Assembly (NCBI GenBank): GCA_030533085.1
Contig: JAUNJZ010000005.1
Span: 1 to 64,000 of the forward strand
Length of the DNA: 64,000 bases
Direction: 5' to 3'
Source of the DNA: Synergistaceae bacterium
GTDB taxonomy: Bacteria > Synergistota > Synergistia > Synergistales > Synergistaceae
Positions 35,343 through 52,008 of the stretch are shown piece after piece. The translations under genes were made by a program, and so were the position numbers. Every line of letters begins with the position of its first letter. The first letter of the stretch is position 1. Below the pieces are notes generated by a model. That model was not told where the DNA came from. It saw nothing but the letters and a program-made list of their open reading frames with translations, and did no database searches.

Positions 35343-35370
35343 TTGACATTTTCTGTGCCGCGAGTATAAA
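35343..35370 (+). promoter_or_regulatory. strong promoter of the metQ-like gene
   Basis: Perfect TTGACA and TATAAA are separated by 16 nt. Transcription would begin near 35377, about 300 nt before the binding-protein gene, leaving a leader with a methionine-rich peptide and a terminator. Confidence 0.8.
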
Positions 35371-35427
35371 ATTTCAGCAATGTTTCTGCGGCGGCTGGCC
35401 GATATTCTGTTGAAGGGGGAAGGCGCG

Positions 35428-35511
35428 GTGTATCAGACGAAGATGTTCTCGATAATGTATATGATGATGCGCGGCGGCTGCGGCTCCCTTCCTGATTTGG
35501 CCGGCGTCTGA
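35428..35511 (+). CDS. methionine-rich leader peptide
   Basis: A 27-codon frame opening with GTG, preceded by AAGGGGG at about 8 nt. It contains MFSIMYMMMR: ATG codons at 35443, 35455, 35461, 35464 and 35467. Its stop is at 35509, 20 nt before a rho-independent terminator. An in-frame ATG at 35380 is possible but lies about 3 nt from the predicted transcript start. The layout (promoter, Met-rich peptide, competing hairpins, terminator, methionine-type transporter protein) is that of ribosome-mediated attenuation. The peptide itself would have no other function. Confidence 0.75.
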   Translation: MYQTKMFSIMYMMMRGGCGSLPDLAGV

Positions 35512-35564
35512 TTTTCGCGTCGTCATTACAGGACCGGAACCGCCCTGCGGCTCCGGTCTTTTTT
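35480..35564 (+). promoter_or_regulatory. attenuator: antiterminator and terminator
   Basis: Terminator: GACCGGAACCGC (35532-35543) pairs with GCGGCTCCGGTC (35547-35558), then six T. An identical GCGGCTCC lies upstream at 35480-35487, inside the leader frame, and can pair instead with GGAACCGC (35536-35543). A ribosome stalled at the Met codons would leave that copy free and block the terminator. A ribosome reaching the stop codon would cover it and allow termination. Confidence 0.7.
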
Positions 35565-35674
35565 AATGTCAACAAGCTTTTGGAAGGAGGTTTTCGCGCC
35601 TTTTCAGCGGCGCGCCGTGAGGGGGATCTAATTTGTCAGGCCGTTTTCGGCACAAAATTTTTGGAGGGATTTTT

Positions 35675-36451
35675 ATGAAGAAGTTTATCGTTGCGTTTTG
35701 CGCCTTGCTCGCGCTCTCACAGCCGGCCTTTGCGGCCGAAAGGATCGTTCTCGGAGTCACGCCGTTTCCGGCTCACGAGATAGCGTCTGTCGCGAAGGAT
35801 GTTCTCGCAAAAGAGGGTTACGATTTGAAGATAGTGGAGTTCACTGATTTCGTACAGCCCAATCTCGCGTTGGAGGATAAAAGCCTTGACGCGAATTTCT
35901 TCCAGCATGTTCCTTATCTGGAGAATATGAAGAGCGAGAAGAAGCTCGATATCGTGCCGCTGGTGAAGGTGCATCTGCTGCCTATAGGCATCTATTCCCA
36001 GAAGATAAAGTCGCTGAATGATGTGCCGGATAGGGCGGTTGTGGCGCTGCCGAGCGACCCGACGAACGGCTTCCGCGCCTATAAGCTGCTGGAGCGCGAG
36101 GGGCTGCTCAAGATGAAGCCTGGCAATAAGCTTACGGCGCTCGATATTGTGGAGAATCCAAAGAAGCTGAAGATCATCGAGCTTGAAGCGCCGCAGCTCC
36201 CGCGCACTCTGCCGGATACTACGATATCGGTGATCAATATGAATTTCGCTGTGGACGCCGGACTTGACCCGACTAAGGAGGCGCTGGCGCTGGAAGCGGG
36301 CGATTCTCCTTACGCGGTGGTGCTGGCCTGCCGCGGCGGAGATGAGGACTCAGCGAAGATAAAGGCGCTCGCGAAGGCGCTCAATTCGCCGGAGGTGAAG
36401 AAGTTCATCACGGAGAAGCTTTCGGCAAAGGGAGTTATTCCGGCTTTCTGA
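35675..36451 (+). CDS. MetQ/NlpA-family substrate-binding protein, probable methionine uptake
   Basis: 258 residues of a type-2 binding fold of the NlpA/MetQ family (RIVLGVTPFPAHEIASV, then YDLKIVEFTDFVQPN, then SLDANFFQHVPYL). The signal peptide ends AFA-AE and shows no lipobox (its only early Cys, in VAFCALL, has Phe before it), so a soluble periplasmic form is likely, unlike typical lipoprotein MetQ. The start follows TTGGAGGG. No MetN or MetI partner is nearby. The Met-rich attenuator upstream is the main reason to infer methionine as ligand. Confidence 0.88.
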   Translation: MKKFIVAFCALLALSQPAFAAERIVLGVTPFPAHEIASVAKDVLAKEGYDLKIVEFTDFVQPNLALEDKSLDANFFQHVPYLENMKSEKKLDIVPLVKVHLLPIGIYSQKIKSLNDVPDRAVVALPSDPTNGFRAYKLLEREGLLKMKPGNKLTALDIVENPKKLKIIELEAPQLPRTLPDTTISVINMNFAVDAGLDPTKEALALEAGDSPYAVVLACRGGDEDSAKIKALAKALNSPEVKKFITEKLSAKGVIPAF

Positions 36452-38255: not shown

Positions 38256-40610
38256 CTAAAGCTTTTCCGCATGGCGAACCGTTTCCATCGCGTCTTTCGC
38301 GTAACAGTCAGCGCCTGTGTATTCGGCAAGGCTTTCCGTGAGCACTGCGCCTCCGACTATGACTTTTACGCCGGGACATTCCTTTCTCAGCAGCTCTATT
38401 GTCTTTTTCATGCTGGCTACCGTGGTGGTCATCAGCGCTGAAAGGCCGACTATCCCGGCGCCGCTTTCTTTTACGGCGTCGGCTACGCGGCGCGGCGGAA
38501 CATCTTTTCCGAGGTCGGTCACGTCGAAGTTGTAATTTTCCAGTATCACTTTGACTATATTCTTTCCAATGTCGTGTATGTCTCCATGTACTGTGGCGAT
38601 TACGATTTTCGGTCCTTTTCTGTCTGCCCCGCCGCTTTTCGCAAGCTCGGCGCGCAGCGTTTCAAAGGCGCTTTTCGCCGCCTCCGCCGATTTTATCAGC
38701 CCCGGCAGGAATATTTTCCCGCCTTCGTAGTCTTTGCCTATCTTGTCCAGCGCCGGGATTATCTCCTTTTCGACGACGGCGAGCGGCTCCATCTCTTTCA
38801 GCAGCAGCGCCGCCGCTTTCGCGGCCTCATCTTTCAGCCCGCGCGCTATCGCGTATTCAAGCCCAGGAATTTCGCCCTTTGCCGTCTCCGGCTGAGCGGG
38901 CAGAGCCGCGCCGTATTTTTCCATGTAGCAGGCTGCGCCTTCATCCTGCCGCAGCAGCACTCTGGCGGCGGCTGCGGTATCCATCATTCCAGCGTCGCCG
39001 GGATTCATTATCGGGGCGTCCAGTCCGGCGGCAAAGGCCATCGCGAGCATCGTGCGGTTTATTATCGGGCGGGCAGGAAGGCCGAAGGATACGTTGCTGA
39101 CTCCCAGCACAGTCCGCACTCCCAGCTCCTTTTTGACGAGCGATATCGCCCTCATTGTTTCAAGCGCCTGATGCGGCTGCGCGCTGACTGTCATCATCAG
39201 GCAGTCTATCAGCACGTCTTCGCGCGCTATTCCCGCCGCTTCCGCCGCCTCGACTATGCGGCGCGCTATCGCGAGGCGGCTCTCCGCGTCGTCGGGGACT
39301 CCATTTTCGTCGAGCGTCAGGCCAAGCAGCGCACAGCCGTATTTTTTCGCTATCGGCAGAATCCTTTCCAGCGATTCTTTTTTGCCGTTGACGGAGTTCA
39401 GCAGCGGCTTGCCATTGTATATGCGGGCGGCGCGTTCCAGCGCCTCCGGCGAGGCGGAGTCGAGCTGCAGCGGAAGGCGTGTCACGGCCTGTATTTCGCG
39501 CACAGCCTCTTCCAGCGTCGCCGCTTCGTCTATGTCAGGCAGCCCCACGTTCACATCGAGGACTTGCGCCCCCTGCTCCTCTTCGCCTATCGCCTCGCGC
39601 AGCAGGAAGCCGATATCGTGAGAGCGCAGCGCAGCTTGCAGCGCTTTTTTGCCGGTAGGGTTGAGCCGTTCGCCGATTACCGTTATCCGGTCGAAGCTGA
39701 CAACGCGCGACGGAGTGCATATCGCGCAGCGCTTCGTCGTTTTTCTTTCAAATGGCTCCGCGCCTTTCAGAGCTTCGCGGGTAAGGCGTATATATTCCGG
39801 GTCTGTGCCGCAGCAGCCGCCTACGAAGCGCGCCCCCTGATCCACAAATTCTCTGGCGTACATCGCGAATTCACGCGGCGTTATGTCGTAGTCCGTCTTT
39901 CCATCTCTGAGAACGGGCAGTCCGGCATTTGGCTGCACCAGAACCGGAAGGGATGTAGAATCCAGTATTCTTTTGACGATGGGGGCGAGCTGTTTCGGGC
40001 CGAGCGAGCAGTTGACACCCAGCGCCGCCACCCCCAGCGCCTCGAGCGTCGCCGTCATCGATTCGACGCAGCTTCCGAAGAAGGTCGTTCCGTTTTCCTC
40101 AAAGCTCATTGTGGCGAATACAGGCAGCTCTGAATTTTCCTTTGCGGCGATGACCGCCGCCTTCAGCTCGTATAGGTCGGTAAAGGTCTCCAGAAGGATA
40201 AAGTCCGCTCCGGCCTCATCCCCCGCGCGAACTACTTCAGCGAATATCTCTACCGCTTCGTCGAAGGGCAGATCCCCCGACGGAGAGAGCACGCGGCCGC
40301 ATGGGCCGATGTCGAGCGCGACGTATTTTCCCTCATAGGCTGAGGCTGCCTCTTTCGCGTTTGTCACAGCCGCCGTCACCATGTCGCGCAGCGGCAGCCC
40401 GGCCTTTTCCGCCTTGAAGCGGTTGGCTCCGAATGTATTTGCGAGTATCACGTCCGCTCCGGCCTCAAGATATTCCCGGTGTATCGCCGTTATCATATCC
40501 GGCGCGCTTATGTTCAGGCTCTCCGGCACTGTTCCCAGCTTCATTCCCCTGCGCTGGAGCATCGTCCCCATTGCGCCGTCGAATAGCAATATTTTATCAA
40601 GCTTTATCAC
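38256..40610 (-). CDS. metH: cobalamin-dependent methionine synthase (without reactivation domain)
   Basis: 784 residues with three of the four MetH modules. The homocysteine-binding barrel has zinc ligands in GVNCSLGP and VGGCCGT. The methyltetrahydrofolate (pterin) barrel begins RITVIGERLNPTGKK. The cap and B12 domain has DIHDIGKNIV for the cobalt-ligating His. The C-terminal SAM-dependent reactivation domain is missing and is encoded by the preceding gene, which overlaps by 14 nt. It transfers a methyl group from methyl-THF to homocysteine, making methionine. Last gene of the minus-strand operon. Confidence 0.96.
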   Translation of the reverse strand: MIKLDKILLFDGAMGTMLQRRGMKLGTVPESLNISAPDMITAIHREYLEAGADVILANTFGANRFKAEKAGLPLRDMVTAAVTNAKEAASAYEGKYVALDIGPCGRVLSPSGDLPFDEAVEIFAEVVRAGDEAGADFILLETFTDLYELKAAVIAAKENSELPVFATMSFEENGTTFFGSCVESMTATLEALGVAALGVNCSLGPKQLAPIVKRILDSTSLPVLVQPNAGLPVLRDGKTDYDITPREFAMYAREFVDQGARFVGGCCGTDPEYIRLTREALKGAEPFERKTTKRCAICTPSRVVSFDRITVIGERLNPTGKKALQAALRSHDIGFLLREAIGEEEQGAQVLDVNVGLPDIDEAATLEEAVREIQAVTRLPLQLDSASPEALERAARIYNGKPLLNSVNGKKESLERILPIAKKYGCALLGLTLDENGVPDDAESRLAIARRIVEAAEAAGIAREDVLIDCLMMTVSAQPHQALETMRAISLVKKELGVRTVLGVSNVSFGLPARPIINRTMLAMAFAAGLDAPIMNPGDAGMMDTAAAARVLLRQDEGAACYMEKYGAALPAQPETAKGEIPGLEYAIARGLKDEAAKAAALLLKEMEPLAVVEKEIIPALDKIGKDYEGGKIFLPGLIKSAEAAKSAFETLRAELAKSGGADRKGPKIVIATVHGDIHDIGKNIVKVILENYNFDVTDLGKDVPPRRVADAVKESGAGIVGLSALMTTTVASMKKTIELLRKECPGVKVIVGGAVLTESLAEYTGADCYAKDAMETVRHAEKL

Positions 40611-41277
40611 CGCAGCAGGCTCCTCTCATTCTGTACGGACAGGATTCGGCGGCGGCGCAGCCGACGCAGTCCCTTCTTCTGTTTTGCGGGCTGTCGGCGA
40701 GGCCGACGACCGCCGTCACTGATTTCATCGGCGTAAGCATGCTGCTCCGCGTGAGCCTGAGACCGATCTTCCTCCCCGCGTCAAGCGCTTCGATTATTTT
40801 TGCCGATTCCGACTGCGCGACGCCGCCGTAGCCGGGAGAAAAGCGCATGGTAAGAAACTTTCCCTCTCCCGCTTCCGCCATTATCGCAAGCTCCGTCTCG
40901 TCGCAGAGACGTTCCGCCTCGGCAGAGGCGCAGGCGTCAAGGATAAGGGCGCGCGACAGATTTTCGACTCCCCTTCTTGCAATCAGCCTGTCCGTCTCAG
41001 CGCCAAGCGTCACGGCCATCAGCGCCGCTCTGCCGCAGCCGCGGCAAAGCCCGGCCAGCTCCGCGCCGCGCAGTCTGAGGGCGGGGCTTATCTCGATTTC
41101 GTCGCCGCTCACAGTTATATCGAATATCCTATAGACCGAACGGGAGGCGGCACTCCGCCGCAGCTCCGCGTAGGATTCTCTTATCTCCTCTTCAAGCTCC
41201 TCGTCAGCCTCGCCCTTCACTCCCAGCAGCCGCCTTATCTCCGCCGCGACGGATGGCGGCGGGAGCAGTTCAGCCAC
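40597..41277 (-). CDS. separate MetH activation-domain-like protein
   Basis: 226 residues resembling the reactivation domain of B12-dependent methionine synthase (family usually named vitamin B12-dependent methionine synthase activation domain). It has RFSPGYGG near residue 145 and a Cys-rich tail (CVGCAAAESCPYRMRGACC). It lies between metF and metH with overlaps on both sides (8 and 14 nt). The likely role is reductive remethylation of oxidised cobalamin on the split MetH. The Cys cluster suggests a metal or Fe-S centre not present in classical MetH. Confidence 0.85.
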   Translation of the reverse strand: MAELLPPPSVAAEIRRLLGVKGEADEELEEEIRESYAELRRSAASRSVYRIFDITVSGDEIEISPALRLRGAELAGLCRGCGRAALMAVTLGAETDRLIARRGVENLSRALILDACASAEAERLCDETELAIMAEAGEGKFLTMRFSPGYGGVAQSESAKIIEALDAGRKIGLRLTRSSMLTPMKSVTAVVGLADSPQNRRRDCVGCAAAESCPYRMRGACCGDKA

Positions 41278-42139
41278 GCTTGACCCTCAAAGAATAGAGT
41301 ACGCCGCGGATATTTTCGCATATCCGCTTCGCGATGTCCGGCTGGTTCATCGTATAAAGATGTATTCCGTCCACACCCTCCGCGAGCAGCTCTATTATCT
41401 GGTTCGTCGCGTAGGCGATGCCGGCCTCGCGCATTGCCATAGCGTTGTGGCCGTAGGCGCGGATTATCTTCTGCACCGCCTCCGGCACCGACGCGCCGCA
41501 CATGGAGACCATGCGGCTTATCTGCGACGGCGAAGTTATCGGCATTATGCCGGCCTCTATGCGCGTCGTCACGCCGAGCCTGCGCGCGCTGTCGCGGAAG
41601 CTGTAGAAGAATCTGTTGTCGAAGAAGAGCTGGCTTATGAGCACATCGACGCCGCAGTCGCATTTGGCCTTCAGATATTCCAGATCCTGCTGCATCGAGT
41701 AGGCCTCTATATGCTTTTCGGGATAGCAGGCGGCAAAGATGTGAAAGTCATAGTTTTCATTGATGAAGGTTATAAGGTCGCTGGCATGTTTGAAGTCCTT
41801 CGTCCCCTCGTCGCCTATGTCGCCGCGCATGGCAAGTATGTTCTGTATCCCGCGCTCGCGCAGCGAATCCAGCGTCGCGCGCATCTCGCCGCGCGTGCTG
41901 CCGACGCAGGTAAGATGCGCCAGCGCCGGAATGGCGTAATCACGCTGTATGCGCGAGGCTATTTCCGCCGTGTTCTCGCGGCTGGTGCCTCCCGCTCCGT
42001 ATGTGACGCTGATAAGATCCGGGTCGAGGCTCGCCAGCGCGTCTACCGTGGCGAATATCTGCGACAGCTCTCCGCTGCCCTTGGGCGGGAATATTTCAAA
42101 TGAAAATGTCGGTTTGTCCAGCTTAAAAAAGTTTTTCAC
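41270..42139 (-). CDS. metF: methylenetetrahydrofolate reductase
   Basis: 289-residue FAD barrel that reduces methylene-THF to methyl-THF, the donor for MetH. Motifs FEIFPPKG, DLISVTYGAGG and QLFFDNRFFY are characteristic. It starts at GTG behind AAGGAG. Co-transcribed upstream of the split metH; an NADH-linked partner (MetV) was not seen, although the Cys-rich MetH-activation protein overlaps its 3' end. Confidence 0.95.
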   Translation of the reverse strand: MKNFFKLDKPTFSFEIFPPKGSGELSQIFATVDALASLDPDLISVTYGAGGTSRENTAEIASRIQRDYAIPALAHLTCVGSTRGEMRATLDSLRERGIQNILAMRGDIGDEGTKDFKHASDLITFINENYDFHIFAACYPEKHIEAYSMQQDLEYLKAKCDCGVDVLISQLFFDNRFFYSFRDSARRLGVTTRIEAGIMPITSPSQISRMVSMCGASVPEAVQKIIRAYGHNAMAMREAGIAYATNQIIELLAEGVDGIHLYTMNQPDIAKRICENIRGVLYSLRVKRG

Positions 42140-51903: not shown

Positions 51904-51987
51904 CACGACTATATCCCTGAGGCAACCGGCTGTCATGACTTTCGTCTTAGACCCGTGGTTTTCCGAAACCGCCTTTCAGCGGTCGTG
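51904..51987 (-). ncRNA. cyclic di-GMP-I (GEMM) riboswitch candidate
   Basis: Read on the minus strand, CACGAC (51987-51982) and GTCGTG (51909-51904) close an outer helix. Inside are a hairpin ACCGC-TGAAAG-GCGGT and a second arm CCACGGGTCTAAGAC-GAAA-GTCATGACAGCCGGTTGCC (given here in parts). These carry the conserved CCACGGGTCTAA and ATGACAGCCGG-TTGCC elements typical of GEMM-I aptamers. The usual GCAAAGCC reads GGAAAACC here. It precedes a secreted surface protein, a common target of c-di-GMP control. Confidence 0.75.
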
Positions 51988-52008
51988 GCTTTTTCTCTTC
52001 TCTTTCGC

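Follow-up and report, generated by a model that had tools for sequence, protein, structure and literature searches.

The window analysed here, a 64,000-nucleotide stretch of Synergistaceae DNA, carries a gene for a MetQ/NlpA-family substrate-binding protein (35675-36451; all features of this locus lie on the plus strand), and the question raised by the locus is how expression of this gene is controlled. Methionine genes are usually controlled by SAM riboswitches, T-boxes or repressors, and ribosome-stalling attenuation operates in the trp, his, leu, phe, thr and ilv operons. The initial annotation proposed that the metQ-like gene is preceded by an attenuator in which ribosomes stall at methionine codons.

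The metQ leader and its conservation

A sigma-70-type promoter was located at 35343-35370, with TTGACA at 35343-35348, a 16-nt spacer and TATAAA at 35365-35370; the promoter pattern scan gave 11/12 matches with TAAAAT (35367-35372) taken as the second hexamer. The promoter is followed by a ribosome-binding site (AAGGGGGAAGG, 35413-35423) and a leader peptide reading frame (35428-35511) with a GTG start at 35428, 27 codons and a TGA stop codon at 35509-35511, which translates as VYQTKMFSIMYMMMRGGCGSLPDLAGV. An upstream ATG at 35380 is also in the open leader frame, and the starts of the homologues align with the GTG at 35428. The control region (35443-35469) contains five Met codons, at 35443, 35455, 35461, 35464 and 35467. 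The promoter, ribosome site, leader frame and Met codons had been described in the initial annotation and were confirmed to the base. The rho-independent terminator (35530-35564; arms 35530-35543 and 35547-35560, T6 at 35559-35564), which begins about 20 nt past the leader stop codon, was likewise present as described; it was seen by folding and was absent from the list of the pattern scanner. The start of its 3' arm, GCGGCTCC at 35547, is repeated at 35480 within the leader frame, as had also been noticed. Chance was excluded as an explanation of the arrangement, the pattern ATGNNNATGATGATG being found once in the window and not at all in 60 Markov shuffles.

The initial annotation had made its proposal depend on conservation of the leader frame in relatives and had suggested an alignment of metQ upstream regions across Synergistota. 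In every close metQ orthologue examined (73-86% identity, same family; loci L003-L007 and L083-L099, with some genomes present twice, in two collections) a leader with a Met run and a terminator were found upstream of the gene. These leaders contain M.MMM or a similar run (M.MMM or MMM being the conserved form of the control region), mostly end in G-S-S-P-E-x-x-G-A at the stop codon and are followed by the terminator, and sites resembling TTGACA...TATAAT were found at the same place as the window promoter. More distant Synergistota have the leaders MMMCMMPRGSSPGMVGA (L012), MMMCLKLPGSSPEMVGA (L017) and MMMCMSPGSSPGAAD (L104). A Met-containing frame before metQ in Ktedonosporobacter (L060) was dropped, as it had no visible terminator and no match to the covariance model described below.

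Alternative pairings of the leader RNA

Two structures, the antiterminator and the terminator, were examined in 19 aligned leaders. In the window, segment 2 (35480-35507, starting with GCGGCTCCC) pairs with segment 3 (35517-35543) to give the antiterminator, a long but imperfect helix with the leader stop codon in its loop. Segment 3 overlaps the 5' arm of the terminator, and given that both hairpins use 35530-35543 they are mutually exclusive, in agreement with the competing pairings that the initial annotation had deduced from the duplicated arm. Both also covary in the alignment. For the antiterminator 82.6% of the cells were paired and the compensatory cells numbered 20 compared to 8.4 in shuffles, well above the slid registers also; for the terminator 93.3% of the cells were paired and 21 were compensatory. 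In a register-free comparison the pairing of segments 2 and 3 was stronger within a leader than between swapped leaders (-26.6 versus -22.1 kcal/mol). None of 500 shuffles was as high for either structure and none of 10,000 permutations was as good for the pairing of segments 2 and 3, but because the leaders share descent these permutation p-values overstate independence and are not true probabilities. The advantage of own over swapped segments, for 2:3 as well as for the terminator pairing 3:4, was confirmed in metN and metY leaders that had been left out of model building. Folding energies were -21.3 kcal/mol for the terminator and -27.5 kcal/mol for the antiterminator (35480-35548). When 35480-35564 was folded alone, the minimum-energy structure retained some of the antiterminator next to the terminator, and the regulatory outcome therefore rests on the order of folding.

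A third pairing, which goes beyond the initial annotation, is predicted between the leader ribosome-binding site, which would act as segment 1, and segment 2. Among 87 leaders the own pairing was -18.9 compared to -16.2 kcal/mol for swapped ones; own pairings were better within the metY and metQ classes and the difference was not significant for metN (p = 0.12); the reservation about shared descent applies to these permutation values too. The pairing recalls hairpin 1:2 of the classical attenuators, except that segment 1 is here the leader's own ribosome site, and it appears to be a distinct feature of the methionine attenuator. A ribosome halted at the Met codons would leave segment 1 uncovered, and when the leader is not translated its pairing with segment 2 would favour termination.

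A family of leaders in Synergistota

A covariance model of the antiterminator was built from Met leaders, and the downstream genes were not used in building it. Matches were found in 109 of 188 Synergistota genomes (E ≤ 0.01). The model matched none of 32 genomes belonging to other phyla at the same threshold and, at E ≤ 0.001, none of 399 from the phylum of Thermoanaerobacter. Loci were parsed around 97 matches, and 72 of the leaders had a Met run; L210, framed by hand, is a Met-run leader before metY. Among these 72 leaders, 66 precede a methionine gene: 25 an O-acetylhomoserine sulfhydrylase gene (metY-like), 21 metN, 17 metQ, 2 metX and 1 a cystathionine synthase/lyase-type gene; of the others, 4 precede a gene for an uncharacterised protein and 2 have no assigned gene. 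By comparison, a methionine gene follows none of the 16 leaders with Ile/Leu/Val or aromatic runs (Fisher's Exact Test, p = 5×10−13), other amino acids being under-sampled here because the model was trained on Met leaders. Where the downstream gene could be assigned, the Ile/Val/Leu-run leaders precede either ilvN (acetolactate synthase small subunit) or the gene of a 2-oxoacid oxidoreductase. Truncated model matches that lack the Met block include Val/Leu/Ile leaders before ilvN, and Phe/Tyr-run leaders on the same scaffold precede phenylacetate-CoA-ligase-like (paaK-like) genes. This correspondence between codon type and gene type, which like the leader frame, the Met codons, the exclusive hairpins and their covariation was obtained from sequence and comparison, supports the attenuator reading of the initial annotation, given that Met runs occur almost only before methionine genes.

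The genome of the window has five matches. Apart from metQ, one leader (MSFVTGYFANNMMMCAYSRGSSCDLPDA, C53) is situated before metN-metI-metQ (metQ2), one ending in QMYMMMCDNGRAFLRQ (C58) before metY-metX, one with an IVVVVI run (MRRESFINNVTRIVVVVISSGSPEVTGA, C40; L115 and L228) before ilvN-ilvC-ilvB and one with six consecutive Ile codons (MLRSISNQNIIIIIINAAPPRGIGA, C52; L116 and L229) before a 2-oxoacid:ferredoxin oxidoreductase operon. The first genes of these operons were named by family scan, and MetI, MetX as second gene, IlvC and IlvB by reading the sequence. That uptake and biosynthesis genes stand under these leaders fits with induction by starvation. The single gene considered in the initial annotation is accordingly one member of a phylum-wide regulon.

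Two groups of loci point to functions of downstream genes. The aromatic leaders of L190, L198 and L219 (FGFVYFY or CFFEYYY) suggest aromatic amino-acid control of a phenylacetate-CoA-ligase-like pathway in Synergistota. In L199, L203, L209 and L220 a 420-residue protein is encoded directly under a Met-run leader, followed by an aspartokinase gene in L199 and L209 and an aminotransferase gene in L220. This protein had no sequence match in Pfam, NCBIfam or PDB, and the leader above it hints at a function in the metabolism of methionine or the aspartate family.

The MetQ-like protein of the window is a full-length NlpA match (PF03180, E = 6.8×10−83, residues 24-258), and its matches to the NCBIfam MetQ/NlpA models are below the curated cut-offs. 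The initial annotation held that the leader independently fixes the substrate of this protein; the leader gives reasonable support for methionine but falls short of proof. The protein has a signal peptide (35675-35740), but no lipobox cysteine is obvious where it would be cleaved (MKKFIVAFCALLALSQPAFAAE), and the protein may for this reason be a soluble periplasmic protein rather than a lipoprotein. Adjoining metQ on the minus strand (38256-42139) are a MetH-like methionine synthase gene, a short reading frame after it that possibly encodes a MetH reactivation-type domain, and a gene resembling that of methylenetetrahydrofolate reductase, all named by reading the sequence without a family scan; the model search found no leader of the metQ type in this neighbourhood. 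Elsewhere in the window a c-di-GMP-I riboswitch scored above the gathering threshold (51918-51999, minus strand).

The predicted mechanism and its alternatives

The metQ leader has the features of a classical attenuator, that is, a translatable leader frame with a ribosome site, a run of cognate codons, a terminator and an exclusive antiterminator placed for control by a stalled or a stopped ribosome. On these grounds we consider it to be, with a probability of about 90%, a ribosome-mediated transcription attenuator with methionine control codons. From the positions of these elements we infer how ribosomes would stall, how stalling would depend on methionine and in which direction the gene would respond. 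With ample Met-tRNA the leading ribosome would reach the stop codon at 35509 in the antiterminator loop and cover approximately 35493-35521, including the inner half of the strand; with the antiterminator blocked, the terminator would fold and transcription would end near 35560. With scarce Met-tRNA the ribosome would stall at a Met codon. At the last one (35467, in the A site) its leading edge would lie at about 35479-35480, just short of the start of the antiterminator strand at 35480, and the antiterminator would form before the 3' arm of the terminator is made, leading to read-through into metQ. Both the stall and the stop positions agree with ribosome footprints.

What could modify this scheme is that translation itself starts with methionine, and severe starvation could for that reason halt initiation on the leader; through the pairing of the ribosome site with segment 2 this could favour termination, contrary to the simple scheme. 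The attenuator might then be read by way of elongation and initiation together, with a bell-shaped response that follows from segment 1 being the leader's ribosome site and from fMet-tRNA starting the leader. At moderate methionine shortage a stalled ribosome would open the gene, and at severe shortage, with no initiation, the ribosome site would pair with segment 2 and close it again, while a conserved Cys codon might bring a second sulphur amino acid into the signal. We regard this elaborated form as a tentative possibility, with the odds against it.

The Cys codon, a feature that the initial annotation did not have, is also the main argument for a different signal, namely cysteine, or sulphur amino acids generally, rather than methionine alone. 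In 75 of 81 blocks the codon after the Met run is one for Cys, 74 times spelled TGC, and many leaders have a further Cys inside the run (MCMMM), so that cysteine could contribute to the signal. However, the leader of the window itself has Arg (CGC) after the run and Tyr within it, Met codons outnumber Cys codons, the controlled genes are methionine genes, and the near-exclusive use of TGC may reflect a constraint on the RNA. A signal of this wider kind is improbable.

It is still harder to maintain that the leader peptide acts as a TnaC-like nascent-chain arrest peptide, the conserved C-terminus of which (GSSPE...GA) would respond to a metabolite within the ribosome, with the Met codons being incidental. 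The tail G-S-S/P-P-x-x-x-G-A is indeed kept in a wide range of leaders as far as the stop codon, but it occurs in Met, Ile/Val and aromatic leaders alike, which stand before different genes, and it is missing in metY leaders of the window's family (GRAFLRQ, GSFLMR, GATLKQ) in which the pairings are kept. Changes in the tail codons moreover covary with segment 3, and for the former two reasons especially an arrest peptide is very unlikely.

Least credible of all is that a riboswitch or T-box in the leader region drives the terminator, with the reading frame as its by-product. In the family, 11 of 53 genomes have SAM-I riboswitches (the genome of the window has no match) and 47 of 53, the window's genome included, have T-box matches. 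However, the Rfam search gave no family match at the leader site, SAM riboswitch and T-box included, and frame, ribosome site and codon identity are conserved, with the codons changing with the gene served.

If the metQ leader is a methionine attenuator, a control amino acid that is also the initiator poses a mechanistic puzzle, and a phylum-wide scaffold in which the codon run is exchanged according to the gene served amounts to a natural codon-swap experiment. The scaffold also offers a route to function, for which the 420-residue protein and the substrate of the MetQ-like protein are candidates.

Similar to the classical attenuators of the trp, his, leu, phe, thr and ilv operons, the Synergistota leaders have a short translated frame rich in codons for the controlled amino acid, exclusive hairpins and a stop codon at which a ribosome would block the antiterminator. 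They differ in that the control amino acid, methionine, is also the initiator, that segment 1 appears to be the leader ribosome site and not the control codons, and that a single conserved scaffold is used for several amino acids throughout a phylum. SAM riboswitches and T-boxes likewise control methionine genes at the RNA level through a terminator, but they read SAM or uncharged tRNA directly without translation of a leader, and the site in the window matches neither. In the open-access literature searched, methionine-codon attenuation with a complete antiterminator/terminator pair was not found, and for the methionine operons of Actinobacteria a survey reports no conserved RNA structure (PMC1262725). 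The only earlier suggestion in the literature searched appears to be the predicted Met-containing leader peptide 'metL' before metNIQ in Streptomyces lividans TK24 (PMC8079986). Like the leaders described here it stands before a methionine importer operon; it differs in being leaderless, with scattered Met codons only (RCMCRRMCAF) and no typical terminator, and is known there from prediction. New in Synergistota would thus be the methionine specificity, with its presumed response to methionine, and the distinct pairing of the ribosome site, conserved across the phylum.
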